Of a stretch of DNA of 32,733 nucleotides, positions 4,146 to 30,832 are shown piece by piece. Position numbers and translations under genes: made by a program. The DNA is from Lachnospiraceae bacterium (lineage in GTDB: Bacteria > Bacillota > Clostridia > Lachnospirales > Lachnospiraceae): assembly GCA_017535945.1 (NCBI GenBank), contig JAFXTJ010000053.1, positions 1 through 32,733 on the forward strand. Reading direction: 5' to 3'. The stretch's first letter is position 1. Every line of letters begins with the position of its first letter. The notes beneath the pieces are model-generated. The model had not been told where the DNA came from, did no database searches, and worked only from the letters and a program-made list of their open reading frames with translations.

Positions 4146-5950
4146 CGCTCGGGGATTTGGATTTAGAAGCCGGGAGCGTATCGGCCGGAAGCCTCATTCT
4201 CGGAAACGATACGACTCTGAAGGTTACCGGCGGTGTCGCGGTCAAGGATCTGACGCTCGGGGACGATGCCACGCTGACAGCCGGCGGGGATATCACATCG
4301 ACCAATCTGCTGACGGTGGAAGATGAATCAAAGATTCGCGCCGGCGGTAAGTTCACCGTGAAGGATGTTTTGCTGAGGGAGATTTCTACGTATAATTTGG
4401 GGGAGTGTGTCTTCTGGGATGCGAAGCTTGCGACCGGTGCCGGCAGTAATCCCGATGCGTTCCAGATCACTGTGAATGGTACGGTCACGATGGACAATCC
4501 CCGTGAGTATCCCGGAGTCATGGCGGGTGATAGTGTAGCGCCGATCCGGATCGGCAAATGGACAGTGGGTGACCAGGGTATCGAGTCTGATCCGGTGGCG
4601 GAGGGAACCGTTCTGGCGACCGCACCCAAGGCCGCGGATGGCTGGTTCAGGCCGACGGCAGTGAAGAGAGCGAATGGACAGATTGATTATGATAACGGCA
4701 TCTTCGTCTATAAGAGCGGCAAGACCGTTGTCTATGATCCGGGCGCTCGCATCTGGATCGATGATGAAGATTACGATGAAGGCGGCTACTACGGCGACAA
4801 TTTCCCGGTCACCCTCCTTTGCATGAGCAATTATGTGAATGCGGACGGCAGCATCTACGGGAGCGATGACGATGATTATGTGGTACCCATGGTCCGTTCG
4901 GATTTCCTGACGCTGACAGAGGCGCTCAAGGAGATCGACAATCTGGCTGCTGCCATGCAGCCGCTGCCGGGCAAAGTGCTGGATAAGGGCGTGAAGCTGC
5001 CGTATGAGCAGTATGGTGTCCTGCTGAACGATACGGACATCAGGGTGACCAACGCGCAGGGCGCCTATGCGCCGATCACGCTGCCGGCCAAGACGAGCAG
5101 TCTGATAATCGGTATCCTGGATGCGGAGGAGCATATGATACGCTTCTCCGGCGGGATCACCTTAAAGAGCGATCTGACCCTGGCATCCGGCGTGAATCTG
5201 GTGCCCATGAAGTCCGTGACGGTGAACAAGGTTAAGACCGATGTCCCGACGACGGCCAACTACACGCTGGGTGCCTATCACCTCTGCTATAACGGCATCA
5301 ATGCGGATATGGGTCTCTTTGAGGATGAAGACGGCACGGTCTATGAGACCATCGGCAATGTGACGGCGACGGCAGGCAAGGGCGGTCTGATCCTGAAAAA
5401 TGGTTCAAGAAACCTCAATTATATCGACAACCAGTTCCGCGTGCGTGTCGCCGGTACGCTGAACAGCGATGTGGAGCTCGGTCCGGATACGATGCTCACT
5501 GTCGGCGGCGCGGCCACGGTCGGCACGCTGACCTTTGATGCGACGGATGGGGGACAGATTGCCCCGGTCTTCGCCGCGGACAAGGCATTGACGCTCGGCG
5601 CGGTGGTGCAGCACGCGGATATGACGAAGAGTCAGGTTAACCGGGCCGCAGGCAAGATCTGGAAGAAGGATCTCTCCACACCGGTCACGGTTAAGGGCAC
5701 CAAGGTGAACGGAGAGACGGTTTCGGTGATCCGGGACAGCCAGGGCGCGGACCTGGCGCCCTGTGTCAAACTCTATCTGGGCACCGCCGCTTCGGTGCCT
5801 GCCGGCACCAAAGCCGCCACAGGCCCCGGTCTGTCTGCGGCTGACTGGGATCTCTACGCCGGAGATTTAAACGTTAGCGCGTTTTATGGCAGTTATATCG
5901 GCTACGTCTACAAGAACGCACTCTATGTCGGCGCCCAGAACAAACCCTGA
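4142..5950 (+). CDS. C-terminal segment of the frameshifted giant repeat protein (gene 1, second segment)
   Basis: This frame continues the protein after the frameshift. The only start-like codon near its 5' end is a TTG at 4142 with no ribosome binding site, so independent initiation is unlikely. It completes one strand-rich module and contains a full last module starting near 4895 (R-S-D-F-L-T-L-T-E-A-L-K-E-I-D). It carries the highly conserved T-I-G-N-V-T-A-T-A-G-K-G at 5348, also found in genes 2 and 3. The C-terminus (Y-V-Y-K-N-A-L-Y-V-G, then a few residues) matches the natural ends of genes 2 and 3, so the 3' end is genuine. There is no LPXTG motif, hydrophobic tail or SLH repeat. Read together, the two segments give about 1980 residues of a protein probably more than 3000 long. 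If the shift is real, the product would lack its last 600 residues. Confidence 0.85.
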   Translation: MTLGDLDLEAGSVSAGSLILGNDTTLKVTGGVAVKDLTLGDDATLTAGGDITSTNLLTVEDESKIRAGGKFTVKDVLLREISTYNLGECVFWDAKLATGAGSNPDAFQITVNGTVTMDNPREYPGVMAGDSVAPIRIGKWTVGDQGIESDPVAEGTVLATAPKAADGWFRPTAVKRANGQIDYDNGIFVYKSGKTVVYDPGARIWIDDEDYDEGGYYGDNFPVTLLCMSNYVNADGSIYGSDDDDYVVPMVRSDFLTLTEALKEIDNLAAAMQPLPGKVLDKGVKLPYEQYGVLLNDTDIRVTNAQGAYAPITLPAKTSSLIIGILDAEEHMIRFSGGITLKSDLTLASGVNLVPMKSVTVNKVKTDVPTTANYTLGAYHLCYNGINADMGLFEDEDGTVYETIGNVTATAGKGGLILKNGSRNLNYIDNQFRVRVAGTLNSDVELGPDTMLTVGGAATVGTLTFDATDGGQIAPVFAADKALTLGAVVQHADMTKSQVNRAAGKIWKKDLSTPVTVKGTKVNGETVSVIRDSQGADLAPCVKLYLGTAASVPAGTKAATGPGLSAADWDLYAGDLNVSAFYGSYIGYVYKNALYVGAQNKP

Positions 5951-5966
5951 TCCGGGAGCGGCATAA

Positions 5967-6011
5967 GCTGATCGGCCGGGGGCGTCATGCGATGCAGGAT
6001 GGCCGGTCAGC
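5967..6011. other. Inverted repeat just downstream of gene 1
   Basis: GCTGATCGGCC (5967-5977) pairs with GGCCGGTCAGC (6001-6011), 11 bp with one G-U wobble and a 23-nt loop. It starts 16 nt after the gene 1 stop codon and has no T-tract, so it could be an mRNA 3'-end stabilising stem rather than a terminator. A counterpart after the other giant genes was not found. Confidence 0.35.
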
Positions 6012-6102
6012 CCTGATGGTACGGCAAAACTACGTAAAGCAGAGCAGTACCTGATGTGACAGACGTCTGACCCTGCAGCATGAGCTTCAGACAGACACAG
6101 GC

Positions 6103-6148
6103 AACACAGAACCGCCGCGGGAAACCGCGGCGGTTCTGTGTTTGTTTT
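6103..6148 (+). terminator. Rho-independent terminator of gene 1
   Basis: An 18-bp perfect stem (left arm 6103-6120, right arm 6125-6142) closes a GAAA tetraloop at 6121-6124 and runs into TTTGTTTT. The stem core is ACCGCCGCGG/CCGCGGCGGT, the same core as the terminator after gene 3 at 30385. It lies about 150 nt beyond the stop codon of gene 1. Confidence 0.9.
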
Positions 6149-6282
6149 CGTTGGTGTGAACACAGCGTAAGAGGGTGTCACAGCCCCGGATCAGGCCGAA
6201 TGCAACCAACGAAAACCCCAACAAGCCGCGAATGCAGGTATAGGCAGCCGCCCATTTTGTCCCCGCGCGGCGGCAGTTGAGA
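6145..6282. repeat. TTTTCGTTGGT inverted-repeat element, copy A
   Basis: TTTTCGTTGGT (6145-6155) and its exact complement ACCAACGAAAA (6205-6215) enclose 49 nt containing GCGTAAGAGGG and CAGCCCCGG. A conserved tail follows, with CGCGAATGCAGGTATAGGCA and CCCGCGCGGCGGCA, to about 6282. The whole 138-bp stretch aligns by eye, essentially without net gaps, to 30508-30645. It overlaps the T-tract of the gene 1 terminator. No protein is encoded. It may be a non-autonomous mobile element or a structured intergenic element. Confidence 0.7.
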
Positions 6283-6434
6283 TTAAGCAATCCTTTACAC
6301 TTCTTTCATTGTAATCCGCCTAGTGTCGTGATATAGTTTCAGGCACAGATGTTGATGCGGCTCTCTTCCGGAGCCGGATTCCCCATGCAACGGATGTTCA
6401 GATGAGAAACATGCGCAAAGTGTTGTTGTACAAA
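6283..6434. other. Intergenic stretch with no recognised feature
   Basis: This is visibly more AT-rich than the flanking giant genes. There is no convincing ORF, tRNA or repeat; a short GGCTC/GAGCC stem near 6358-6375 is too weak to call. It marks the left edge of the brnTA block. Confidence 0.4.
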
Positions 6435-6463
6435 TTGTATTGCAAAATGCAATGCAATACATA
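6435..6463 (+). promoter_or_regulatory. brnTA promoter with overlapping operator dyad
   Basis: TTGTAT (6435-6440) and TACATA (6458-6463) are separated by 17 bp, a good sigma-A type promoter. The same interval holds an inverted repeat, TGTATTGCA (6436-6444) and TGCAATACA (6453-6461), with an 8-bp centre. BrnA-type ribbon-helix-helix antitoxins are known to repress their own operons, so this dyad between the -35 and -10 is the likely BrnA/BrnTA operator (inference). Confidence 0.6.
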
Positions 6464-6517
6464 CTACGGTTTATATTGCACATTGCCCTGTCGCATGATA
6501 GTGTAAGGAGAGAATAT

Positions 6518-6796
6518 ATGAAGTTTGAGTGGGATGAAGAGAAGGAGAGAGCAAATATCAGGAAGCACCGAGTTGATTTTCACATGGCGGCTCGGGTGTT
6601 CTTCGATCCGGATGTGCTGGTTCGTTATGATGATATACATTCGACAGAGGAAGACCGATATATTGCGATCGGCAGAGTTGATGAGACGGTTTTGATCCTG
6701 CTTGTTGCATATACAGAGAGAAAAGACCGGATCCGTATCATTTCAGCCAGACCGGCGACCAAACGGGAGAAGGAGAGGTATCACTATGGCAACTAA
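6518..6796 (+). CDS. brnT: BrnT family type II toxin (ribonuclease)
   Basis: A 92-residue protein starting M-K-F-E-W-D-E-E-K, with the typical BrnT plan: N-terminal F-E-W-D-x-x-K, then N-x-x-K-H-x-V-x-F near residues 14-22, A-x-x-V-F-F-D-P near 26-33, E-D-R-Y near 46-49, and a C-terminal I-R-I-I-S-A-R-x-A-T-K-R-E. BrnT toxins have a RelE-like fold and cleave RNA to block growth; BrnA neutralises them. The frame is open further upstream (an ATG at 6452), but the ATG at 6518 is chosen because it gives the family N-terminus and follows TAAGGAGA (6504-6511) at normal spacing. It precedes brnA with an 11-nt overlap, the usual toxin-first order of this family. All key family segments are present, so the toxin is probably functional. 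Confidence 0.93.
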   Translation: MKFEWDEEKERANIRKHRVDFHMAARVFFDPDVLVRYDDIHSTEEDRYIAIGRVDETVLILLVAYTERKDRIRIISARPATKREKERYHYGN

Positions 6797-7100
6797 AAAA
6801 GTAACCATATCGAAGAATCAAAAACTGACCGGGGAGCAAACGGAGATGCTGAAAGCAGCCGCGACAGCACCGATTGAGCCGGATGAAGAGTTGCCTGTGC
6901 AGACAGATGAGCAGTTGGCTCAATTCCGGAGGCTGTCAGAGATCAAACGAGCCGAGCGCCGCAAGCAAAATGTAACCTTGCGGTTGTCTGCGAGTGCATT
7001 GAAAAAAGCAAGAGCATGGGGAAAGGGATATACTTCCATACTCAGCCGTATTCTGGAGAATGCCTTGAATGACCCGGAAATGATCAAGAGGAATCTGTGA
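6786..7100 (+). CDS. brnA: BrnA family antitoxin (ribbon-helix-helix DNA-binding)
   Basis: A 104-residue protein starting M-A-T-K-K-V-T-I-S; the ATG at 6786 overlaps the end of brnT, so the two are translationally coupled, with GAGAAGGAGAGG just upstream as a binding site. The N-terminal half is charged and acidic (E-P-D-E-E-L-P-V near residues 37-44), as expected for the toxin-binding part. The C-terminal part, Q-N-V-T-L-R-L-S-A-S-A-L then K-A-R-A-W-G-K-G-Y-T-S-I-L-S-R-I-L-E, is the ribbon-helix-helix of BrnA/RHH_4 proteins, with the strand V-T-L-R-L and the G-K-G-Y turn. It should neutralise BrnT and bind the dyad at 6436-6461. The pair is more AT-rich than the neighbouring giant genes, consistent with acquisition from elsewhere. 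Confidence 0.92.
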   Translation: MATKKVTISKNQKLTGEQTEMLKAAATAPIEPDEELPVQTDEQLAQFRRLSEIKRAERRKQNVTLRLSASALKKARAWGKGYTSILSRILENALNDPEMIKRNL

Positions 7101-7125
7101 TCTTAAGCCGGGGTGAAGTAACGTT

Positions 7126-7150
7126 ACACAGTCCTTCGGGGCTGTGTTTT
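7126..7150 (+). terminator. Rho-independent terminator of brnTA
   Basis: ACACAGTCC (7126-7134) pairs with GGGCTGTGT (7139-7147) around a TTCG tetraloop, followed by TTTT. It starts 26 nt after the brnA stop. Its stem closely resembles the terminator after gene 2 (19407), and both are followed by the 86-bp hairpin array. Confidence 0.85.
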
Positions 7151-7190
7151 GTTGAGACGGCAGCTTCGCGGAAGATGAACGGGTGGTGCC

Positions 7191-7661
7191 GGGTATCTGC
7201 AAACGCGGGAAATGAGTATTTGCAGTTACCCTAACCGGCCCGTCCGACCGCCCCGCGGAGATGAGTGAGCGGTGCCGGGTACCTGCAATCGCGGGAAATG
7301 GGTGTTTGCAGGTACCCAAAGAAGCCCGTCCGGCCGCCTCGCGGAGATGAGTGAGCGGTGCCGGGTAACTGCAAACGTGGGAAATCGGCATTTGCAGTTA
7401 CCCTAAGCCGTCCGTTCGACCGCCCCGCGGCGAGGAATGTCCGGTGCCGGGTAACTGCAAACGCGGGAAATCAGTATTTGCAGTTACCCTGAGCAGCCCG
7501 TCCGGCTGCCTCGCGGAGATGAGTGAGCGGTGCCGGGTACCTGCAAACGCGGGAAATCAGTAATTGCAGTTACCCCTGGCGGCCCGTCCGGTTGCTTCGC
7601 GGAGATGAGTGAGCGGTGCCGGGTACCTGCAATCGCGGGAAATGGGTGTTTGCAGGTATAC
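7191..7661. repeat. Tandem hairpin array 1: six units at exact 86-bp period
   Basis: Units start at 7191, 7277, 7363, 7449, 7535 and 7621, an exact 86-bp spacing. Each unit is a 41-bp interrupted palindrome (GGGTAACTGCAAA, about 15-nt loop, TTTGCAGTTACCC) followed by a 45-bp spacer. The loop always contains GGGAAAT. Spacers resemble one another (CCGTCCG..CGCGGAGATGAGTGAGCGGTGCC), so this is not a CRISPR array. The period is not a multiple of three, so it is not a repeat protein. The last unit's right arm ends in GGTATAC instead of GGTACCC. The array fills the gap between the brnA terminator and the gene 2 promoter. Function is unknown. Confidence 0.95.
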
Positions 7662-7697
7662 GAGATGCCGGGAATCGTGGAATACACGGCAGATCTA

Positions 7698-7706
7698 TGG
7701 TATGAT
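7698..7706 (+). promoter_or_regulatory. Extended -10 promoter of gene 2
   Basis: TG-G-TATGAT (TG at 7698, hexamer 7701-7706) fits an extended -10 element. No good -35 is seen at 17 bp, as is common for extended -10 promoters. Matching TGGTAT[GA]AT sites precede genes 3 and 4. The predicted leader is about 90 nt. Confidence 0.6.
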
Positions 7707-7802
7707 ATGAAGCGGTTATCACTAATTAAGATCTCCCGGCGCTGGCGACGTGCCGCGGGATAAGACCCGAGAAGCCGAAAGATCATCAAGGAGGACAATA
7801 TC

Positions 7803-10800
7803 ATGAAGAGTCGTGCAGGGAAGCAGTTGTTGGCGTGCATGCTGGCACTTGCCATGTTCCTCGGCAATGTGGACGCGGCGGTGGCCGCGCCGGCAGCCGG
7901 GGAGATCGCAGGCGCACAGGTCGCAGCCGGCGGAAGCGAGACAGGCGCAGTGCAGGTCGCCGACGAGGGCGTGCAGTACACCGTCGACGCCGACGGGCGG
8001 GTCACGATGACTCCCGCAGCAGCTCCCGCCGATGATGAGGATGCCGATACCGTCCCGGCCGGGAAGGATACCGATCCCGCGGGGGATGAAAAGCCCGAGG
8101 ATGCGTCTCCGGCTGCCGGCGGGAGCGATCCGACGGATGATGAGGAAAGCGGCGACGCGTTCTCCGTCACTGCCGGGAGCGGGTATGCCGCGTCAGATAA
8201 TGAAGAGATCGAGGCTGCGTCCCATGCCGGGAGCGATACCCTCCTGCCCGTATCCGACGAGGAGGAGCCCGAGCGTCTGACAACAGTTGCGAATGGCACG
8301 GAGAACGGCCTTGCCTGGACGCTTGATGAGAATGGTACGCTCACTATTACCGGTGACGGTTCTACGAATGATTACACGCAATCCTCTCGTCGACCCTCCT
8401 GGGACGGACATAAGACGGATATAAAAAAGGTCTTCATCGACATGTATGTCCGGAAGATCGGCAATTATGCGTTCTACAACTACACCTCTCTCGAATCCGT
8501 TGAATTTTCCGCCGTTTCCAACCTCAGAACCTTCGGCAGCAACGTCTTCCAGGGCTGTACAAAACTGGCCTCGATCGGCACCTACGCCACGACAGAACCC
8601 GATGCCGAACTGCTGGAGGGCATCCTGCCCTCCGTCACCATTATCGGCGACAATATGTTTAACAGCTGCGCCATCACGCAGATCACGATCCCTGCGGACG
8701 TCGAAACCATCGACAACAATGCGTTTTTCAACTGCAAGGCACTGCAGATCGTTTATTTCTCGTCGTTCGGCGACGGCTCTCACAACCTCACAACCATCGG
8801 TAACAATGCCTTCTCAAACTGCGAGTCTCTGGGGCAGAGCGGAGAGACCATCCTCCTGCCGGATTCCGTCACTTCCATCGGCAACAAGGCTTTTTACCAG
8901 TGCACGGCCCTGCAGCGCATCCAACTCCCTTCCGGCATATCGACCATCCCGGACAACTGCTTTACCGATGATGAAGCCCTGGGAGGTACTCTCCTGTCGA
9001 GCCCCATCACCATCCCGGCCAATGTGACTTCCATCGGACAGGCGGCCTTCTCGGGCTGCGATATCCTGGAGACGGTGACGTTTGAGGATAACAGCAGGCT
9101 GGAAAGCATTGCGACCGATGCCTTTTACAATTGTCAGGCATTGAAAAACATCACCCTCCCGGCCTCTCTCAAGACCATCGGCGGAGGCGCCTTCGCAACC
9201 TGTGTGGCCCTGGATGAGAACTTCACGATCCCTGCGGGCGTGACCTCCATCGGCAAAATGGCCTTTTTTGAGTGCGGCGCCCTGACACAGGTGACGGTCC
9301 CCGCCGGGGTGCAGACGATCGAGGAAAGTGCCTTTGCAAAATGTTCGAGCCTGGCGACCCTTACCTGGGCGGCGGATGCGCAGACAACAACGATCAAGAC
9401 CAGTGCATTTGAGAACTGCACGAAACTGGCAACGGTCACTTTGCCGGCAAGCCTGGAAATGATCCAGACCACCGCCTTTAAAGCCGACACCTCCCTTACC
9501 TCCATCACGATCCCCAAGGCCTGCACCTTCTTAGACGGGAGCGCTTTTGACGGCTGCACCGCGCTGGCTGAGATCAACGTGGAAGAAGACAACACGGCCT
9601 ACTACAGCGAAGAGGGCATCGTGTACAAAAAAGCGGACGGCACACAGCACATCAAGCCGCCGGCCAACACGGCGGTCATTCCCGAGGTGGTGGTCTATGC
9701 CGAGGAGAAGACCGATCTTACGACCTACACCGTCGTAAAGACCGTCAAATGCGCGTCGGATGACAACTACGGTGCGATGATCAATGCCTACTTAGCGATC
9801 CATCGCATGGACAACTCGCCACAGGGTCAGGGTTTTGAACAGGTGCCGGACCGCTACCGGATCGTGCTGCGTCAGGATACCACTTTTAACATGGGTGACC
9901 TGAGGTTCAGCAACGATAAGAATGGCGACGACGGCCCCATTCCGCTGGCGGAGCGCGTGGTACTGGAGCTCAACGGCCACACGCTGACGCAGGAAAATAT
10001 AGGCAGTGGGAAGATATCCAATATCAGTCTGGCAGAGATAAGGGGTGACGCTGAGGGCAAGAGTAAGATCGTGGGCAGAGCAGGCAATGAGATCATGATC
10101 TATGCGGACAGAGATGAGGGACAGACCCCCATGAGCATCGAAAGCGGTCTTACGATCGAGGGCGGTGCTGCGGTGACCATCCGAAACCACGGGACGGTAT
10201 GCGCGACGGTTGGAGCTCCCATCAGAGCAGACAGCGTGCGCCTGGAGGGAAATATCACGTCCACGGCGGATGTGACGGCCGATAAGGTTGAGATCCTGGC
10301 ATACGCTAAGAAATACACAGACGATGCAGGAGTCGAAACGAGAGTTCGTGACCTGTGGACACCGGTCCTTACGGACGGAAAGATTACGGCACGGGAGTCC
10401 CTGGAGGTAGATACCGGAGCGACGCTGCATGATGTGGAATCGAAGACGGAGACGAAGTTTGCTTCGAAAGATCTGATATATACAAATGCACGGCGCATTA
10501 ACCAGAACCATCTCATTTTCTCCGGGGACATCGTCCTGGATGGGGACATTACCTGGGGAGTGGGTTATGAGTACAATAACGACAGCAGCGGCATGCAGCC
10601 TGTATCCATCGTGATGCAGGAGGACGCCTCCTTAAGCCTCTCCGGTACGGGACAGTTTACGAGTACATACAGCAACTCTAACGTCTTACTTGCGAAACAG
10701 CACGCCCCGCTCCTGTACTTCGACAGACCCGGGGGCTTTGCTAAAGATGACGAGATCCTCCGCGTGGCAGAGGGGACCGAGATCGGCGGTCTGGCTGTGG

Positions 10801-13800
10801 CGGATGAGCATATGCCTGTACTCTTTGGCATCTATGACCAGCCGCGGGGCACCGCCCTCTTTATCGACGAACCAACTGCGGGAGAGACCTACGGCACGGT
10901 CCGTCTCCACGAGGCGGCCGTGCGCGTCACGGTCTATGACCCGGAGACGCAGACGCAGAAGCAGAGGGTCTTCACCTCGTTGGACGGGGCGTTTGAGGAT
11001 CTTGCCAAAGGAGCGGACAGCTTCTCCGGCGGCTTTACCGGCACCTATTATTTCTATTTCTACCGGGATGCGGTACTCAATAGGGATGCGACCCTGCCGG
11101 ACTATGTCACTTACGCGGTCTTTGGCGGCGATGATTCGATCTGTCTGTACGATGACAACACCGGCGAGGCCGTGGACACCCTGACGCAGACCGGGATCGA
11201 TCTGAACGGGCATACGCTGACGGGCACGAACCTCACCTTTGATGCGACCGCGATCCCATATAACGGCAACGAAGATGAGAGAGCGCTCCTGTCCGGGACG
11301 GATGCGCAGGGTACAACGGGCTATGTGGCATTCCGGTCCCTGTCGATGGTCCATGCGGACGCCCCCTTCGTGATCGTGACGCCGGACGGGACACAGATCG
11401 GCCGGGTCGACGCTGACGGGAAGACCTGCAGCATCGATACGGAGGATCATCCGTACTGGGAGAAGCTGCTGGCGAATACGGATGTATCGGCCGTGCAGAC
11501 CATCTCTGTCCTCACCTGGGGCAGAGAGGTGAAGGGCTTCCACGAGTCGCTTGACTACAGCGCGATCGGCGATGACACCTTTACGGCGGATACGGTTGTC
11601 TTTGCGCTCGCAAACTTCCGGCTGCCGAAGATCTCCACCTGCCGGAGACTGCAGATCATGCAGGGCGCGCGGGCCGCAGTGAATGACAAAGAGGGGCTTC
11701 GCGTCACCCATCAGCTGCTGGTGAGCGGCGACAGCGCGCTGCTTCTTGAGTCGGGCGATAAACTCACGGTAAAGAAAGAAAAAGCCCCGGATGACGGCGC
11801 ATTCATCTTTACCGATACCGGTTCGCTCCTTGTCAGTAAAGGTGCGACCGCGGATCTGCAGCGCCTGGGGATCTACATCCAGAGAGAATCCGACGGGACG
11901 GCGCACGTGGATCCCGGACATGTCTATGTCGGGGATAATGCAAGGCTTGCGATCGATGAACTTCAGGTGCAAAAGGTGAATGCGGCCGACGCGCCGGTCC
12001 CGGTGGAGTTCCATCATCTTAATTCGGATACAGGTAAGCTCACCCTTGAGAAACTTCAATCGGTGAGCGAGCTCGATGACCTCTGCGGCACCTTTGATAA
12101 ATCGATGGTGATCTTTACCATGCCGGATGCGGCCGCGGTAAAGGCGATCAACGCAGGTTTCGTCACCGTGGTCAACGCGGATCCGACGAGTCCGTACACC
12201 ACGGCCGGCGTGTATGGTGACGGAAAGGTCAGGGTCGAGAGAACTCATTATACGATGACTGTCGGTGCCGGAACGGAAGTCGGATATACGTCGCCGGCGG
12301 AACTGTTCGCCGCGCTTGCGGCGGTGAACGAACCCGCTAAGGATGTGGTGGTGACCTGCAAATATGCTGTCTCGGGAGCGGATATCAGATTCCCCAAGGC
12401 TGCAAAGAGCGTCAGGTTTGTCGGCGTGAATAATGAGTCCGGGGACAAGAGGTCTCTTATCCCGAACAACCGGGCGATCACCACGACCTGTGATACGACC
12501 TTTGAAAATGTGATACTTCAGCTTAGCGCCACCTCCTTTACGGCGGTCTCCTCTCTGACGCTCGATGATACCGAAGTCCGCTGGAACGGGAGCTCCACGG
12601 CCAAGGTGACGGTAAAGAGCGGCGCGTTGTCCTGCAAAGGCGAGGTCACGTTTAACACGCCCGTGATCTTTGACGGGAGCGGAAAAGCCTCCTTTATCCT
12701 GGATGACGGGGAGGGGGCGAGTCTTACGACCGGCAGCAAGACGGCGGGTTCATGGGAGACGAAGTACCGGGGATATAACGACTACAGCCAGGAGATCTTC
12801 TACAGCATCGAACCGCGGAACAAACCGTTTGAGTCCTTCATCGAAGGCGGTCTGCAGAACTTCGCGGAGGTAAGGCTCAAATACGCCAAGGTGTGTGTGC
12901 GCGGCGCTGACGCGGGAAGTCAGGCCCCTGTCTTTAGCGGCATCGGGACGCTTGCCCTGAATAATGCCATCCTAACGGTGGCGGATACGACGGCCAGGCC
13001 CGGGGCCCTCAAGATCACGGATCTGACGGCGGACAACGCGGTGTTCGTCGCGGACGGCGCTCTTTCCGTCACTGATATGAGACTCGGGAACCAAACGGAG
13101 GTGGCGGCGCTCGGGGATTTCAAGGTCGCCGGCGACATCATCTGCCGGGCAGACGGTTATCCTGCGATCCTGACCACGGTGCAGGCGACGAAGAACGGAG
13201 CCGTTGCAGGTCCGAAGCTCACCATCGGCGGCACGGTGGAGCTGCAGGGGAGAAGCTTCCCGGTCATGGTGATGGTGCTCGATGAGCAGATAGAGACCGA
13301 TGGGCACGCTCCGGTCTACGCCGATCTCCTCTCCGGTGAGCCGGGGAGTACCGCAAGAAAGCTCGTCACGGCCCCCAAGGCGGCGGAGAACTGCTTCCTG
13401 GCTTTCTTCGCCAATGTTGCGGATGGCGATAAGCACAGGGATCCGCTTATCATGTTGGATGATCCCACGAAACTGACAGACACCTACTATCTGACGAGGA
13501 ATAAGAATGACATTTTTGTCGAGTCCGGCGATTCGGTGGAAGTGGCGCTGGCGCGCGGGATTCTCGCAGATGAGACCGCGCTGCAGGGTGCGGCATATAT
13601 CAACTACTACAAGTCCTTTAAGGAAGCCGTGGCGGCTGTCGATGCCCTCAAGGATCCGGCAGCGGCATATACGCTGGTGCTGCTTCAGGATATCAACAAG
13701 GCGGGCGGTGTCTATGCTCCGACGGCTCTGACCATGCCCGCGCAGGCATCGGCGCTTGAGATCATGAGTGCGGATGCGGACAAGGCTGCGGAAGGTGTTC

Positions 13801-16800
13801 AGCCCCATGTCCTCTGTTTCTCGGGCAATCTCACGCTCAAGCAGGATACGACCCTTAACAACGTAAAGCTTGCACCGAAGTCCAACGCGACGACGGACAA
13901 TAAGAATGCCTCCCTTGCGGCGGGCAGGTATGCGCTGACCATGGAGCGGGTTTCGACGGAGTCGGCCGATGCGCCCATCGCATCGATCACGGGTGCCAAA
14001 GAAGGACAGCTCATCGTCAAAGACGAATTCGCCGTCGCCAAAAATGTGAGCGGCTTTGCCTCGGTCGATCTGTCGGATAATCTGTTCCTGACCGGCGGTG
14101 CCTTTACGGCAGACACCCTGATCCTGCGCGGAGACGCGCAGCTCATCGCCATGGGCGGCGCGGTGACGGTGACGGACGTCTGTACCTTTGACGGCGATGA
14201 CGCCGAAAGCAGCCTGCACGGGATCGCTTTTACCAAGTCTAACAAGGGGGCCGGCAAGTCCAACCTCACGATCAAGGGAGAGATCAGGCTTGAAAGCAGG
14301 GGCGGCGATCCTCTGGTCCTGATGCTGTGCAGACCGACTGTCATGGATGCAAAGGCGCCGGCGGTCACAAAGGAAGCCCTGGCCCTGACCACGGATCCGA
14401 ACAAGAACTACAAAGTCGTGTTGGATGCTAAGAACCATTTGGCGGACATCGGGACGAACCCGACGGAGAGGATCCGGCTGTGGCTGAATGACGGCGAAGG
14501 CCCGGTAGAGATATTCACAAACGATCCATATACCCCGGTCAAGGCGAACGGAGGCCTGTACCTCGCGGATACCAACAAGGAGCTCTTTAAGAATTCCTGC
14601 ACGATCTTACAATCCACCGGATGGGGCACCTCTGAGTATCCGGACTATGCGCAGGCGGTGGCGGAGATCGACCGGTTAGGCAGCAAGGAAAACATGAGAG
14701 CATATGTTGTCATGCTTGCCGCCGAGTGTTCGAACCGTCCGGAGCGGATAAAGGATCTCAACGTCACCGATACCGCGGAGATCTCGCCGTTTGTGCTGCC
14801 GAAAAAGGACAAGGCGCAGCGCCTGCAGATCAGGTTCAGCGGGTCGGGTGCGACGGCGACGGAGGTCTGCTTCACCGGCAAGCTCTCCGGCTACGGAAAG
14901 ATCGATCTCGCGACCATGGTCCTCCGCCCCTGCAAGTCGGCGACGAGTGACGCCGCGGGCACCTTTGATGTGACCCTCGGCTTAAACAGTAACAACGGAG
15001 CCTCCGAGTTTTATGTCAGCGCGGCAAGAGCGGGACAGCCTAGTGTTCCCATGCTCGCCGACGGTGCCACGATCGGCAAGATCACGGGTGTCAAGGCGGT
15101 CGCAGGCAAGAACGCGGCGAGTAAGGTGAAGATCAAAGGCGGCCTGCTGACACTGGGCACAGGCTTTGCGGGCGGCATCGATGTGGAGCTGGATGGTTCC
15201 ACGGTGGTCGCCCGGGGCGCAAGCGACATCGGGACGCTCTGGCTGTCGCCGACCGGTCAGAATGCGAACAATATCGCGGAGTTCTACTCCTACGGAGCCC
15301 TCAAGGTGGCGGATATCCATGTGAAGAATTACGGTGTGAGCGCGGAGGGACGCCCCAATGTCCTGTTAGCGGGCAGGGACAGTGCCAAGGGCGGACAGAT
15401 CACCCTTGCGGGCAAGGTGACCGCGGAGTATACCGACGATGACAGACTGCCCATCCTGCTGATCGACACAGCCGCGAACGCATCCAATGCTGTGGCGGCA
15501 AACGGTATCGATCTTAACGACGTGAGCATCGAGACGGCGAGTTATGCGGGCAAAAAGCTCCTCCTGGCCCCCACGGCGGATGCCGCAATGATCCTGGCCT
15601 GGCCGTATCTGAAGGATGCTGATATCTCATCCTACAAGACCGCGGATCTGTACGTGGCATGCGGCAAAAAGGCCGACATGGCTGCCAGGATCGAGGCCTA
15701 TGATACGGGAGCGCTCGGGAGCAGCGAGTACTTCGACCCGGATCAGATCGTGATGACCACCTATGCCGGCACCTTCTACGAAGCGATGCAGATCATCGAC
15801 AAGATGAACCGGCCCGACTATTCCTACAGCGTCGAGCTGTTACAGCCCGGGGCCATGTATACCGGTAAGCCGGACGAACACGGGCGCGCGACCTTCGGCG
15901 CGATCAGTCTTGCCTCCAAGACCGGCATGCTGAAGATATGGGCCGAGTATATGTATGATGAAGCTGATCCGGACACAGCGACGCCTCCCGTGCTTCAGTT
16001 CAGCGGTGCGCTGACAGCCAAAGTGCCGACGATCCTGGACCTGAATTACATCAAAACGGAATGCGGCAGGATGGAGAACGGCGGATTCGTTGCCGATCCC
16101 GCAGGTCCCGTTCTGGATACGGGCGCGGCAAATAAGGACGGATGGAAGCTCAAGCTGCAGGGCGGTTCGTTCGCAGTCACAGGCGTGGTCAGGAAGACGG
16201 TACAGTTCTCCTCTCTCAAGGGGACGGGGGGCCTCTTCCTCGAGGAGATCGATGTGGTCTGCGACGGGGCCGTCAATCTGACGGATCTGGTCATGGATGA
16301 TGCGGCGTTGACGGTCCGGCAGGGAGATGTTGTCGTGAAGTCACGCCTTGGGCTGGGCAGGGATCCTGAATGTGCCTCGACGCTGACCGTTGAGGATCCG
16401 TCTAAGAAGATCACGCTCGGGTCCGTGCTGTACGAAGGGAATCTGTACGGAACGGGATTTGATCTCGAAGAGGACGAGCGGTGCTGTCTCACGGTGGATT
16501 ACCGATTCACGAAAGCAGCGACGCCGGTCTCAGGCCTCACGATCACGGGGGATGTGGAGGATACCTGTATCACCCTGGTACCGCAGTTGTGGCACGAGGC
16601 GGCCGAGGGGCATGACGCGGGCTGGTATCTCCTTGCGGACCAGGATGCTCAGGTCGAAGGAGAGGATCCGACTCCTGAGCTGTACAACTGCGGTCTGTTT
16701 GTGAAGGCTCCCGGTGATCTCGTCGCGGCCAAACGCCTGGCGGCGCTTAACAAAGCGTCCGCGGGCTCCTTTGAGATGCTGATGGGCACAAAGACCTACT

Positions 16801-19304
16801 GTACGCCGGATCCGGAGTCAGAGGATAACGAGACCGTAAGTGCCCTTCTGAAGCAGAGCGGTGGCCTCTTCTGGTCGGATCTTGCGCCGGTGGTCCATGT
16901 CTCGGCCACGGCGCCCGCCTATGAGGGAGACTTCCTCACGCTCGAGGAGGCGGCCAAGGAGGTCGACAAGTTCGGGCGCAAGGAGGGCGGTGCCTATGTG
17001 ACGGAGGTGACCTATACACTGCTTGACCATGTCGGGATTGGAAAGATCGATGACAAGACCGATGAGCTCGGAGTCCCGGCGGGCGTCACGCCGCCTGCAA
17101 AGATCGCGCTGCCCGAGGCGGTGAAGAGCCTTACGATCGACGGCAACGGATATAAGATCGCCTTTACCGGCAACGCCCTTGCCTTGACCTGTGATACCGT
17201 CTTCACCGGCGGTGAGGCCCTGTGGCGTGCCAAACAGACCGGGGGCGGATATACGATCGATGAACCCTATGATATCAGCCTGGGCAGGTATACGCTGACG
17301 ATCGATACGGACAGCGGATACTATGACTTTGATGAAGAGCATGAATTATACTATGTTCTCAGCATCGGCAAGATCTCCGGCACCGGATCGCTGATCGTGG
17401 GGGAGGACCGGGAGGTCTATGTGGCGCGTGTGTCCGTTAAGGATCTGACGCTGCTGGAGGACAGCTATCTGGAGACCCCGGAAGGTAATATCGCTGATAT
17501 CTCGGTGACCGGGAATCTGCGGACGGAACTCAATAGCTGGCTTGAAAGCGGCGGCAAGCTGACCGTGGGCGGTGATACGACCCTGCTTGAGGATTCAGGC
17601 TTCGATACGTCCGGAGATGTGACCTTAAAGGGTGCTTTGTTGATGGGACCGGATTCGAGTATAGAAACATGGTACAACACCGGAAGCGGCATCACGGTCA
17701 AGGGCAGGACGACGATGGAATGCGACGCGGAGCTCGACGCCGATGGCAAGCTCACCTTGGGCGATGTGGTGCTGGATATGGGATGCGATGGTGAAGACAG
17801 CGTGTTTTGGGACGCCGGGATTTCGCCGGCTACGGCAAAGGATCCGCATGACAGTTACATGATCACGGTGAACGGGACCATCCGGACCGCAGTCGCGGAT
17901 CAGATGCCGGTCCCGGGTTCTGCGGATAAGGATGCGCCGATCCGGATCGGAGAGATCAGGACACCGAACAAGACGGCGCTCGTCACCGCCCCCAAGGCGG
18001 CGGACGGCTGGTTCAGGCCTGAGAAACTGGATCCGATCGATAAGAAAGATGCGGAAGATTCCTGGGGCAATGCAGTCGTCTATAAGAGCGGCAGCAGAAT
18101 CCTCTTCGAACAGGGTAAAGAGCTGCCTGTCAGGCTGTTTACGCACGGCGATGAGGTGAACAGGAAAGGCGAGGTCCTGCAGGAGGACGATCCCGTCGAT
18201 CCGGACGATCCGAACAGTGAAGAGTACGGCAGCGATGGTTACGGGATCAGCTCCGACTTTGCCTCCTGGGATGAGGCTGTCAAGGAGATCGATAAGCTGG
18301 CAGTGACCGCAACCCCCGCAGCGGGTGTGGTCCTTGATAAGGGGGTCAAGCTGCCTTATGCACGCAATGATCTGATCCTGATGAAGGAAACCATCGACAT
18401 CGTGAACGCCCAGGGCAAGCCGGCGGCGTTAACGCTGCCTGCGAAGACCTCGCAGTTGTCCATCGCGGCTGATGAGAGCCTGAATCGTGCCGCTGTCACC
18501 TTTGCGGGCGGGGTCACCTTAAAGAGCGATCTTACGGTGGATCCTGCGGTCTCGCTGGTTTCCGTCAAGCAGGTCACGGTCGGGAAGGCCGTGAATACGA
18601 TGTCGGTGGCTGCCAATTATACGCTGGGGGTCTATGATCTGACGATCCGGGGGACGACGCCGCCGGAGCAGGGCGAGTCGGACACCTGCGTTTTCGGTGA
18701 ATACACGGATGTGACGGGGCTTCACGATACGATCGGCAATGTGACGGCCACCGCCGGCAAGGGACATCTGATCCTGGAGGCTGACGCTGTCGGTGACTAT
18801 CCGTATTGTGTCAAGGTGTCGGGGAACCTGACGGCCGATGTGGTCCTGGGACAGAACACGTATCTTAAGACGACGGGCGCGGCGACGGTGCCGACGCTCG
18901 TATTTGACCGGGCGACGAAAGATCAGAATGCACCGGTCTTAGATGCGCTGGGCGCACTGACCCTGGGGGTGGCGCAGCAGGTCGGCAGCGAGGACGCGCA
19001 GGATACATCAGGCTGTATCTCAAGACCGCTTTCCGCCCCGGCGATGACGATCAAGGGCGTCAAAAAGGACGGCCGGATGATCGCGGTGGACCGCGATCCT
19101 GACGGGGACGGCGTGCAGGCCGCGCCGGTCGAGATCCTGTTAGGCGAGGCGGAAGCGGTAAGTGCGGACACCAAGGTCCTCACCGGTCCCGCGGGCATGA
19201 GTGTCAGCGACTGGAAGATTAGTAACGGCAAAGGGTCCGTGAGCTACAACCCCTATCTGTACAAGAACGCCATCTATGCCGGAGAAGCAGTATACAAGGA
19301 TTAA
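7803..19304 (+). CDS. Giant secreted BspA-like LRR and tandem-module protein, 3833 aa (gene 2)
   Basis: The ATG at 7803 follows AAGGAGG (7788-7794) by 8 nt. Residues 1-28 form a signal peptide with K/R-rich start, hydrophobic core and A-V-A cleavage site. Residues 30-160 are an acidic Pro/Ala/Asp/Glu linker. Residues about 160-185 carry the W-T-L-D-E-N-G-T-L-T-I-T-G segment typical of BspA-like proteins, then 15 LRR_5 repeats (x-x-A-F-x-x-C-x-x-L-x-x-I) to about 620. The remainder is a chain of modules whose entry motifs start near residues 1057, 1495, 1936, 2282, 2654, 3040 and 3483; a diverged one may precede them at about 640-730. The last five match gene 1 and gene 3 in order. The protein ends with Y-K-N-A-I-Y-A-G and has no LPXTG, SLH or membrane tail. 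BspA-type LRR proteins bind host or community ligands, so an adhesin or surface fibre is the best guess; no catalytic motif was recognised. It has its own promoter and terminator. Confidence 0.9.
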   Translation: MKSRAGKQLLACMLALAMFLGNVDAAVAAPAAGEIAGAQVAAGGSETGAVQVADEGVQYTVDADGRVTMTPAAAPADDEDADTVPAGKDTDPAGDEKPEDASPAAGGSDPTDDEESGDAFSVTAGSGYAASDNEEIEAASHAGSDTLLPVSDEEEPERLTTVANGTENGLAWTLDENGTLTITGDGSTNDYTQSSRRPSWDGHKTDIKKVFIDMYVRKIGNYAFYNYTSLESVEFSAVSNLRTFGSNVFQGCTKLASIGTYATTEPDAELLEGILPSVTIIGDNMFNSCAITQITIPADVETIDNNAFFNCKALQIVYFSSFGDGSHNLTTIGNNAFSNCESLGQSGETILLPDSVTSIGNKAFYQCTALQRIQLPSGISTIPDNCFTDDEALGGTLLSSPITIPANVTSIGQAAFSGCDILETVTFEDNSRLESIATDAFYNCQALKNITLPASLKTIGGGAFATCVALDENFTIPAGVTSIGKMAFFECGALTQVTVPAGVQTIEESAFAKCSSLATLTWAADAQTTTIKTSAFENCTKLATVTLPASLEMIQTTAFKADTSLTSITIPKACTFLDGSAFDGCTALAEINVEEDNTAYYSEEGIVYKKADGTQHIKPPANTAVIPEVVVYAEEKTDLTTYTVVKTVKCASDDNYGAMINAYLAIHRMDNSPQGQGFEQVPDRYRIVLRQDTTFNMGDLRFSNDKNGDDGPIPLAERVVLELNGHTLTQENIGSGKISNISLAEIRGDAEGKSKIVGRAGNEIMIYADRDEGQTPMSIESGLTIEGGAAVTIRNHGTVCATVGAPIRADSVRLEGNITSTADVTADKVEILAYAKKYTDDAGVETRVRDLWTPVLTDGKITARESLEVDTGATLHDVESKTETKFASKDLIYTNARRINQNHLIFSGDIVLDGDITWGVGYEYNNDSSGMQPVSIVMQEDASLSLSGTGQFTSTYSNSNVLLAKQHAPLLYFDRPGGFAKDDEILRVAEGTEIGGLAVADEHMPVLFGIYDQPRGTALFIDEPTAGETYGTVRLHEAAVRVTVYDPETQTQKQRVFTSLDGAFEDLAKGADSFSGGFTGTYYFYFYRDAVLNRDATLPDYVTYAVFGGDDSICLYDDNTGEAVDTLTQTGIDLNGHTLTGTNLTFDATAIPYNGNEDERALLSGTDAQGTTGYVAFRSLSMVHADAPFVIVTPDGTQIGRVDADGKTCSIDTEDHPYWEKLLANTDVSAVQTISVLTWGREVKGFHESLDYSAIGDDTFTADTVVFALANFRLPKISTCRRLQIMQGARAAVNDKEGLRVTHQLLVSGDSALLLESGDKLTVKKEKAPDDGAFIFTDTGSLLVSKGATADLQRLGIYIQRESDGTAHVDPGHVYVGDNARLAIDELQVQKVNAADAPVPVEFHHLNSDTGKLTLEKLQSVSELDDLCGTFDKSMVIFTMPDAAAVKAINAGFVTVVNADPTSPYTTAGVYGDGKVRVERTHYTMTVGAGTEVGYTSPAELFAALAAVNEPAKDVVVTCKYAVSGADIRFPKAAKSVRFVGVNNESGDKRSLIPNNRAITTTCDTTFENVILQLSATSFTAVSSLTLDDTEVRWNGSSTAKVTVKSGALSCKGEVTFNTPVIFDGSGKASFILDDGEGASLTTGSKTAGSWETKYRGYNDYSQEIFYSIEPRNKPFESFIEGGLQNFAEVRLKYAKVCVRGADAGSQAPVFSGIGTLALNNAILTVADTTARPGALKITDLTADNAVFVADGALSVTDMRLGNQTEVAALGDFKVAGDIICRADGYPAILTTVQATKNGAVAGPKLTIGGTVELQGRSFPVMVMVLDEQIETDGHAPVYADLLSGEPGSTARKLVTAPKAAENCFLAFFANVADGDKHRDPLIMLDDPTKLTDTYYLTRNKNDIFVESGDSVEVALARGILADETALQGAAYINYYKSFKEAVAAVDALKDPAAAYTLVLLQDINKAGGVYAPTALTMPAQASALEIMSADADKAAEGVQPHVLCFSGNLTLKQDTTLNNVKLAPKSNATTDNKNASLAAGRYALTMERVSTESADAPIASITGAKEGQLIVKDEFAVAKNVSGFASVDLSDNLFLTGGAFTADTLILRGDAQLIAMGGAVTVTDVCTFDGDDAESSLHGIAFTKSNKGAGKSNLTIKGEIRLESRGGDPLVLMLCRPTVMDAKAPAVTKEALALTTDPNKNYKVVLDAKNHLADIGTNPTERIRLWLNDGEGPVEIFTNDPYTPVKANGGLYLADTNKELFKNSCTILQSTGWGTSEYPDYAQAVAEIDRLGSKENMRAYVVMLAAECSNRPERIKDLNVTDTAEISPFVLPKKDKAQRLQIRFSGSGATATEVCFTGKLSGYGKIDLATMVLRPCKSATSDAAGTFDVTLGLNSNNGASEFYVSAARAGQPSVPMLADGATIGKITGVKAVAGKNAASKVKIKGGLLTLGTGFAGGIDVELDGSTVVARGASDIGTLWLSPTGQNANNIAEFYSYGALKVADIHVKNYGVSAEGRPNVLLAGRDSAKGGQITLAGKVTAEYTDDDRLPILLIDTAANASNAVAANGIDLNDVSIETASYAGKKLLLAPTADAAMILAWPYLKDADISSYKTADLYVACGKKADMAARIEAYDTGALGSSEYFDPDQIVMTTYAGTFYEAMQIIDKMNRPDYSYSVELLQPGAMYTGKPDEHGRATFGAISLASKTGMLKIWAEYMYDEADPDTATPPVLQFSGALTAKVPTILDLNYIKTECGRMENGGFVADPAGPVLDTGAANKDGWKLKLQGGSFAVTGVVRKTVQFSSLKGTGGLFLEEIDVVCDGAVNLTDLVMDDAALTVRQGDVVVKSRLGLGRDPECASTLTVEDPSKKITLGSVLYEGNLYGTGFDLEEDERCCLTVDYRFTKAATPVSGLTITGDVEDTCITLVPQLWHEAAEGHDAGWYLLADQDAQVEGEDPTPELYNCGLFVKAPGDLVAAKRLAALNKASAGSFEMLMGTKTYCTPDPESEDNETVSALLKQSGGLFWSDLAPVVHVSATAPAYEGDFLTLEEAAKEVDKFGRKEGGAYVTEVTYTLLDHVGIGKIDDKTDELGVPAGVTPPAKIALPEAVKSLTIDGNGYKIAFTGNALALTCDTVFTGGEALWRAKQTGGGYTIDEPYDISLGRYTLTIDTDSGYYDFDEEHELYYVLSIGKISGTGSLIVGEDREVYVARVSVKDLTLLEDSYLETPEGNIADISVTGNLRTELNSWLESGGKLTVGGDTTLLEDSGFDTSGDVTLKGALLMGPDSSIETWYNTGSGITVKGRTTMECDAELDADGKLTLGDVVLDMGCDGEDSVFWDAGISPATAKDPHDSYMITVNGTIRTAVADQMPVPGSADKDAPIRIGEIRTPNKTALVTAPKAADGWFRPEKLDPIDKKDAEDSWGNAVVYKSGSRILFEQGKELPVRLFTHGDEVNRKGEVLQEDDPVDPDDPNSEEYGSDGYGISSDFASWDEAVKEIDKLAVTATPAAGVVLDKGVKLPYARNDLILMKETIDIVNAQGKPAALTLPAKTSQLSIAADESLNRAAVTFAGGVTLKSDLTVDPAVSLVSVKQVTVGKAVNTMSVAANYTLGVYDLTIRGTTPPEQGESDTCVFGEYTDVTGLHDTIGNVTATAGKGHLILEADAVGDYPYCVKVSGNLTADVVLGQNTYLKTTGAATVPTLVFDRATKDQNAPVLDALGALTLGVAQQVGSEDAQDTSGCISRPLSAPAMTIKGVKKDGRMIAVDRDPDGDGVQAAPVEILLGEAEAVSADTKVLTGPAGMSVSDWKISNGKGSVSYNPYLYKNAIYAGEAVYKD

Positions 19305-19449: not shown

Positions 19450-19748
19450 GGGTACCTGCAAACGCGGGAAATTGATGTTTGCAGTTACCCCGGGGAGGCT
19501 TGCGGACCGTTTCGCGGAGAAGAGTGAGCGTTACCGGGTACCTACAAACGCGGGAAATCGGCATTTGCAGGTACCCGTGGCCATCCGGATGGCCGTTCCG
19601 CGGGGATGATTGCCCGTCGCCGGGTAACTGCAATTACGGGAAATCAGTGTTTGCAGTTACCCTGAGCCGCGCATTTGGCCGTTCCGCGGGGATGTGTGCC
19701 CATCGCCGGGTACCTGCAAACGCGGGAAATCAGTATTTGCAGTTATAC
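19450..19748. repeat. Tandem hairpin array 2: four units at exact 86-bp period
   Basis: Units start at 19450, 19536, 19622 and 19708, again exactly 86 bp apart, with the same 41-bp interrupted palindrome and GGGAAAT loop as array 1. Spacers are related to those of array 1 but have a local CCGCGGGGATG variant; the spacer after unit 2 contains the 16-bp perfect palindrome at 19579-19594. The last unit's right arm reads GCAGTTATAC rather than GCAGTTACCC, and the gene 3 promoter starts about 15 bp later. The array lies between the gene 2 terminator and the gene 3 promoter. Confidence 0.95.
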
Positions 19749-30481: not shown

Positions 30482-30645
30482 AACCAACGAAACGGCCTAA
30501 TATACCATTTTCGTTGGTTTGGCCATAGCGTAAGAGGGGGGTCGCAGCCCCGGCTCAGCCTGGCACAACCAACGAAAACGCCAACAACCCGCGAATGCAG
30601 GTATAGGCAATCGCCTATTCTGCTCCCGCGCGGCGGCAATTGTGA
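30482..30645. repeat. TTTTCGTTGGT inverted-repeat element, copy B with flanking short hairpin
   Basis: A short hairpin, AACCAACGAAA (30482-30492) and TTTCGTTGGTT (30509-30519) with a 16-nt loop ending TAATATACCAT, shares its right arm with a longer element. In the latter, TTTTCGTTGGTT (30508-30519) pairs with AACCAACGAAAA (30567-30578) around 47 nt holding GCGTAAGAGGG and GCAGCCCCGGCTCAG. The conserved tail (CGCGAATGCAGGTATAGGCA, CCCGCGCGGCGGCA) runs to about 30645, as in copy A at 6145-6282. Confidence 0.75.
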
Positions 30646-30679
30646 CGGCGCCAACCCACGCAAGCGCGACAAATCTATG

Positions 30680-30777
30680 TTTTCGTTGGTTTTGCCACAG
30701 CGTAAGAGGGGGTCGCAGCCCCGGCTCACCACATCCCCAACCAACGAAAGCGGCCTAATATACCATTTTCGTTGGTT
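30680..30777. repeat. TTTTCGTTGGT inverted-repeat element, copy C with flanking short hairpin
   Basis: TTTTCGTTGGTT (from 30680) and AACCAACGAAA (30739-30749) enclose a centre with GCGTAAGAGGGGGTCGCAGC. The latter arm also forms a short hairpin with TTTCGTTGGTT (30767-30777) around GCGGCCTAATATACCAT, which matches the loop at 30493-30508. Relative to copy B, the short hairpin is on the opposite side, and the tail is absent. Confidence 0.75.
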
Positions 30778-30832
30778 CGGCCATTCTCGACATTCGACAT
30801 TCGTCCATTTTCTTCGAAATTCCGCTAATGTC

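Follow-up and report, generated by a model that had tools for sequence, protein, structure and literature searches.

The closest described systems are the REP elements and BIMEs associated with RAYT (TnpA-REP) proteins, which, according to the accessible parts of two reports, are short, dispersed, extragenic and clustered palindromes that vary between related genomes (PMC2817692, PMC3733652). The same sources report that RAYT genes evolve fast (PMC2817692), that the enzyme gene lies near its own repeats (PMC2817692, PMC3733652), and that CGTC repeats occur without a dedicated transposase (PMC3733652). In the literature covered, where dispersed palindromes of bacteria have a partner enzyme, it is a Y1 transposase. 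In the titles and abstract openings covered, mostly of papers outside subscription journals, nothing was recognised as the arrays described here, and a keyword check of PMC12306157 gave no match.

The window, i.e., the whole stretch of 32,733 nucleotides analysed, is contig C97 of a draft Lachnospiraceae genome (G000; 2.65 Mb, 82% complete). What is kept in its hairpin arrays and in those of its relatives is the arms and the spacing, and in one relative three arm classes are each found near a gene of an unnamed nuclease-like protein family. The first-pass annotation had described six interrupted palindromes at an exact 86-bp period without an indel, which both inspection and TRF (period 86, 5.8 copies, 7158-7655, 0% indels) bore out for array A (Table 1). 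The unit given there, GGGTA-x-CTGCAA...TTGCAG-x-TACCC, holds in general; the sixth hairpin, like the last unit of array B, ends in TATAC in place of TACCC, and the x positions are not always paired, as seen in units 1 and 5. Array B, a second 86-bp array absent from that annotation, is situated in the gap separating giant genes 1 and 2. When the 41-nt stem pattern was searched with up to three mismatches, the window gave 10 matches, and 100 shuffles that preserved dinucleotide composition gave none. The link that had been drawn between array A and the giant gene is incidental: giant gene 1 is a mere neighbour, outside the array system, and most arrays adjoin other genes. Directly upstream of array A, a BrnT/BrnA toxin-antitoxin pair was identified at window positions 6521-7100 (Pfam). 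A separate repeat family with inverted arms TTTTCGTTGGTT/AACCAACGAAAA is located at window positions 6143-6282 and 30506-30784, its copies lying in direct orientation about 24 kb apart and flanking the two giant genes.

Table 1. Coordinates of the arrays, hairpins and genes considered (window positions unless a locus is named).
Feature	Position	Strand	Remarks
Array A	7158..7661	+	Six hairpins, 86-bp spacing, partial linker before the first
Hairpin 1, array A	7191..7231	+	x positions T/T, unpaired
Hairpin 2, array A	7277..7317	+	
Hairpin 3, array A	7363..7403	+	
Hairpin 4, array A	7449..7489	+	Outer stem fully paired; RNA fold -21.2 kcal/mol, z -6.28
Hairpin 5, array A	7535..7575	+	x positions C and T
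Hairpin 6, array A	7621..7661	+	Outer right arm degenerate, TATAC
Array B	19450..19748	+	Four hairpins, 86-bp spacing (19450, 19536, 19622, 19708)
Giant gene 1	7803..19304	+	3833 aa; BspA-type leucine-rich repeats in first 499 aa (part scanned)
Family member, TTACGTC class	L280:3440-4279 (G229:C13)		279 aa; ~100-120 bp from own-class array
Family member, GGTATTAC class	L287:4561-5325 (G229:C13)		254 aa; ~100-120 bp from own-class array
Family member, TACCTGCA class	L075:9237-10088 (G229)		283 aa; between two TACCTGCA arrays, 0.8 and 1.7 kb off

Across the window genome, the same stem pattern with up to three mismatches revealed 46 hairpins, which form 11 arrays of two to six units and one single hairpin. 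These arrays are intergenic, with genes called by ORF length and by eye, as are those of the two relatives considered below (G229 and G200). The spacing is 86 bp 29 times, 85 bp twice and 75 bp four times, the last all within array C36, whose fifth position in this count was taken from the covariance-model search. Loop and linker sequences vary between arrays and their lengths are kept. Likewise, the GGGAAAT reported as invariant in the loop is present in all 10 window copies and missing from arrays C27, C72, C96 and C36 of the same family; a Noc-like reading of this heptamer, which we take to resemble the Noc motif, was dropped since these other arrays lack it. The genes flanking the arrays also differ from one array to another and include, by Pfam, a capsule-type gene, a methylase, a SEC-C protein, BrnT/BrnA and BspA-type repeats, and, by eye, a ribosomal protein, recA, flagellar and kinase genes. 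A further class of array in this genome has arms GCCTGCTAC/GTAGCAGGC and a period of 54 bp (contig C10 (L238), 141-440 and 5748-5900; contig C72 (L038), 3868-4127). Arrays also leave spurious-looking ORFs, for instance one of 179 aa across array C65 (L003, 1-540), which could get annotated as proteins.

Outside the window genome, a 35-nt core, TACCTGCA-N19-TGCAGGTA, is common to G000 and two distant species of the genus, G229 and G200. The covariance-model search proposed in the first-pass annotation, run across 79 genomes of the genus, gave matches in G000 and weak ones in G229 and G200, and these weak matches are themselves arrays of the inner core. Written as TANCTGMA-N19-TKCAGNTA, the core was found in 29 places in G000, 62 in G229 and 27 in G200, and in one or two places in nine of the other genus genomes, while a reversed-pattern control over the 79 genomes gave one or two places in two genomes. 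Among 397 genomes of the family, more than two core places were found in G000 and G229 only. According to RpoB, found in 59 of the 79 genomes, the nearest relatives of G000 are five genomes at 91-93% identity, in none of which the core was matched; for G229 and G200 the identity is 85%. The distribution of the core arrays looks patchy, bearing in mind that arrays with other arms would escape this core search. In named genomes, the exact stem gave no arrays and two single hairpins (L010 and L011), which were taken as chance, with a T run after L010 and only three T after L011; in viral contigs, the strict array pattern gave no array, and at least 120 stretches with single matches to a loose pair pattern were likewise attributed to chance. 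In the arrays read from G229 and G200, 42 of 42 adjacent spacings were 74 or 75 bp, so that spacing in the relatives is fixed and not random; the sample comprises 54 hairpins, each no more than 200 bp from a neighbour, with 31 taken from the 62 places in G229 and 23 from the 27 in G200.

When 400 kb of contig C13 of G229 was scanned for inverted 7-mer pairs of any sequence that recur at a distance, two further classes of array were seen, namely TTACGTC/GACGTAA, with a spacing of 51-53 and some units missing, and GGTATTAC/GTAATACC, with a spacing of 53 in 8 of 8 cases. Each of the three array classes of G229 (TACCTGCA, TTACGTC and GGTATTAC) is accompanied by one member of a single unnamed family of PD-(D/E)XK-like proteins of 254-283 aa, and all three members found in this genome lie beside or between arrays. 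Other genes intervene between the TACCTGCA-class member and its two arrays, and its G200 ortholog lies about 0.7 kb from an array. No Pfam model matches the family and NCBIfam holds no relevant model; the C-terminal part of each of the three proteins is matched by PADLOC PDC-S68 models, with best E values from 1e-23 to 1e-27, and HEAT_CxxC_PDDEXK matches two of the proteins, one weakly. An alignment of five full-length sequences has 27 invariant columns, 23 of them in the C-terminal half, including RSKSE, DF and EH.G, and this profile similarity together with a conserved acidic core predicts membership of the PD-(D/E)XK group, while a PDB search with a family protein gave no confident match. 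The TACCTGCA-class gene evolves faster than three neighbouring genes, with 89% vs 96-98% amino acid identity. A search of plasmids gave 10 records, of which nine carry an ATPase or helicase annotation, and in phages three queries all led to the same three records. In viral contigs, one protein gave no match and the alignment gave five loci, four of which encode what look on inspection like large helicase-like proteins. Together, these searches yielded a single full-length relative, MT839528, a human-gut contig of 4.2 kb that carries no array. In the window genome, tblastn of about 570 kb of the 2.65 Mb (the window and further contigs, about a fifth of the genome) gave no homolog, a share from which absence of the gene cannot be claimed; contig C10, which bears GCCTGCTAC/GTAGCAGGC arrays, likewise gave no homolog of the family by tblastn. 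At L280 (G229:C13) 2904-6480, the TTACGTC nuclease-like gene has tRNA-Pro on one side and, on the other, a repeat of the tRNA 3' end together with the start of the array (214 bp, 80% identity), an arrangement that resembles an element integrated at a tRNA.

We tentatively propose, at somewhat less than an even chance, that these dispersed intergenic arrays of half-sites at fixed spacing are bound by a class-specific PD-(D/E)XK-like protein and that their turnover and spread are driven by its nuclease. The protein is assigned to the arrays because, in a relative, each gene is flanked by or adjacent to arrays of the matching class, and the window genome would presumably carry such a gene as well. 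The half-sites would be bound as duplex DNA by the class-specific member of this small family, its variable N-terminal part contacting the arms, and the fixed spacing may reflect cooperative binding of neighbouring proteins, perhaps on one face of the helix. A nuclease domain, if active, could through breakage and repair let arrays gain or lose units, spread to new places and disappear, a scheme modelled on the supposed role of RAYTs for REPs. The observed periods of 51.7, 53, 54, 74.5 and 86 bp fall close to whole turns of 10.5 bp, with a p of about 0.012 calculated post hoc, but the periods of 58 and 59 bp in a control genome (G240) correspond to 5.5 and 5.6 turns, off whole turns, which makes the helical-phase argument weak and leaves it with little weight. 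As for the structural constraint put forward in the first-pass annotation, regular protein binding is the best-supported of its forms, and the string of RNA stems is not sustained by the data given below.

One alternative, which we consider unlikely, is that the arrays are functionless tandem repeats, a hairpin segment having been duplicated by slippage and unequal recombination and then moved by ordinary recombination. Units are indeed alike within most arrays and copy number varies, in keeping with the recent amplification suggested earlier. For example, G000:C34 5715-6389 and G000:C60 1-644 represent the same locus at 97-98% identity with 3 vs 4 units, so copy number changes by a whole unit, the pair being either a strain mixture or a duplication in the draft. 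Seven G229 arrays were compared with the sister species G200: three are common to both (9 vs 4, 6 vs 4 and 3 vs 3 units), and the other four are absent, or almost absent, from G200, one leaving a decayed hairpin. Arrays are gained or lost rapidly, and their absence in four of seven comparisons indicates that they are dispensable, which counts against our proposal. A clean insertion with target duplication was rejected as a general account, since one G229-vs-G200 junction is clean (365 bp) but another retains the decayed hairpin in G200, a difference that therefore looks like loss. Near-identical units also occur in G240, where no member of the nuclease-like family was found in the 400 kb scanned; the clearest array there (L312:19655-19818, G240:C1) is intergenic, with three near-identical units at 59 bp. 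What tandem copying does not predict is that the spacing stays the same between unrelated units. Loop identity was 45% or lower in 9 of the 42 adjacent pairs of G229 and G200, and the spacing was still kept. An orthologous 3-unit array of these two species, with unrelated loops and linkers among its units, has spacings of 75 and 74 in both, and changes between the species amount to 1/48 in the arms, 11/57 in the loops and 23/79 in the linkers (Fisher p 1.8e-4), which already strains this alternative. Since the arrays were found by their arms, there is a bias towards intact arms, which the positions left free by the search pattern escape; at the four such arm positions, the consensus base was present in 54, 54, 50 and 54 of 54 hairpins. 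Because the 8-bp arms are near-invariant and the loops and linkers change freely, also where adjacent units are unrelated, tandem copying alone does not account for the spacing, and the occurrence of three arm classes, each near a related gene, also argues against functionless repeats.

A second alternative, slightly less likely again in our view, holds that the arrays bind some architectural or regulatory protein that has nothing to do with the PD-(D/E)XK-like genes; the proximity of these genes would then be due to hitch-hiking or chance. Arm conservation and spacing need just some binding protein, and the fifth of the window genome read yielded no homolog. Nor is the array scan specific; this, the missing homolog in that fifth and the array-free contig of the human-gut homolog all count against our proposal. 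With 400 kb scanned in each, the inverted 7-mer scan gave 26 rows in G240, which is without TACCTGCA arrays, vs 19 in G229, and a stricter scan gave three regions vs two (both TTACGTC), the GGTATTAC array being missed; with at least as many rows in G240 as in G229, the scan cannot alone separate the genomes. The G240 array without a family member in its 400 kb further indicates that hairpin arrays occur without the gene nearby. At L312 (G240:C1) 10231-10350, inverted repeats with a period of 58 bp were also observed. The reverse direction stands: all three family members of G229 are near arrays. In addition, tblastn of 3.3 Mb of partly redundant DNA gave no full-length member beyond these other than the G200 ortholog and the human-gut homolog, the other matches being domains of large proteins.

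The reading as class-specific duplex binding must also be set against pairing of the stems. In 39 distinct hairpins of the window genome, 84.8% of 624 cells pair, and three core pairs are changed on both sides in 11, 4 and 15 of the 39 sequences. The number of cells paired, the number of cells with a double change and the covariation score were each above all 500 shuffles, and the number of pairs with a double change and of pair types were not, since 201 and 342 of the 500 shuffles, respectively, reached values at least as high. Because the sequences are related, this covariation is support, not proof, of pairing; nevertheless, duplex binding does not require it, which counts against our best explanation. 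Folds are stable in the window copies (z -4.7 to -6.8) and in the relatives (z -2.5 to -5.3), the stems of the relatives being weaker (-8.5 to -10.4 kcal/mol). By contrast, a dispersed array of the TTACGTC class, about 390 kb from its gene, has six GACGT sites at 52, 51, 51, 52 and 52 with only two ACGTC partners left, and the retention of sites whose partner arms are lost favours duplex half-sites over hairpins. An intrinsic terminator would have a T run after its stem, and none is visible after the ten window hairpins on inspection. Rfam gave five sub-threshold matches at E<=1 for window positions 6000-8000, of which mir-351 (19 of 70 bits) overlaps the array, and only two riboswitches at gathering score at the relatives' loci, so the earlier remark that no described element was recognised agrees with both searches. 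That the arrays are transcribed RNA hairpins with a regulatory, stabilising or small-RNA role is very unlikely despite the folds and covariation, as wobble pairs show no strand bias (9 G.T vs 15 A.C of 468 cells), fixed spacing is unexpected for RNA, and the weaker stems, the lost partner arms and the lack of an Rfam family point the same way.

Equally remote is the idea that these are REP/BIME-like elements mobilised by a Y1 (RAYT) transposase. The arrays do consist of short, imperfect, extragenic and dispersed palindromes (the 46 places in G000, and likewise in G229 and G200) that are clustered, and Y1 domains are frequent in the genus, where 60 of 79 genomes have them. However, GTAG or CGTC occurs within 12 nt of none of the 54 hairpins of G229 and G200, with CTAC near one; the 264-aa Y1 genes of these two genomes are flanked by another hairpin family (TGAGCCCTAGGGACGGAGGTT...), with no TACCTGCA core at up to three mismatches in the two 10-kb loci (G229:C13, G200:C18); and BIME alternation is absent, loops lying in one orientation per array where they are alike enough to tell. 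On these three defining tests, membership of the REP/RAYT group fails. One Y1 gene was read per relative, G229 having a second Y1 match outside this comparison, and a Y1 transposase as mobiliser was rejected for the two genes read; no Y1 match was found in the 82%-complete window genome. The two Y1 loci (G229:C13 (L261) 325139-326949 and G200:C18 (L262) 138917-140685) show weak C-terminal helix-turn-helix matches and flanking palindromes with CCGTCC.

It is possible, if on the whole doubtful, that the arrays and the nuclease-like family represent a new class of DNA system, in which a small PD-(D/E)XK protein with a variable recognition part has its own spreading half-site arrays, with several classes per cell, as a nuclease-based counterpart of REP/RAYT. 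Such a system would add a second type of enzyme maintaining repeat families, its class-specific half-sites would be open to a direct DNA-binding test, and it would account for arrays where draft genomes break. When compared to CRISPR arrays, the present arrays share regular spacing and an inverted repeat in the unit, but they lack identical repeats with unique spacers: only the short 8-bp arms are invariant, and in most arrays the loops and linkers of the units are akin, which upholds the earlier remark that the spacers resemble one another, unlike those of CRISPR. Iterons and operator arrays are protein-binding repeats at regular spacing; the regularity is alike, whereas the arrays described here occur at many loci and not at one origin or operator. 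The proteins resemble PDC-S68 and HEAT_CxxC_PDDEXK, candidate defence proteins of PADLOC, in their C-terminal domain, but in contrast to PDC-S68, with models of about 1200 aa, they stand alone at 254-283 aa, have their own variable N-terminus and are encoded near arrays. Finally, like the REP/RAYT systems, the arrays are short, dispersed, extragenic, palindromic, clustered and variable, with a fast-evolving enzyme gene near its own repeats; unlike them, they are accompanied by an enzyme that appears PD-(D/E)XK-like and not Y1, they keep one orientation, a fixed period and arms of 7-8 bp while their 19-nt loops are free, and several classes with unrelated arms are present in one genome.
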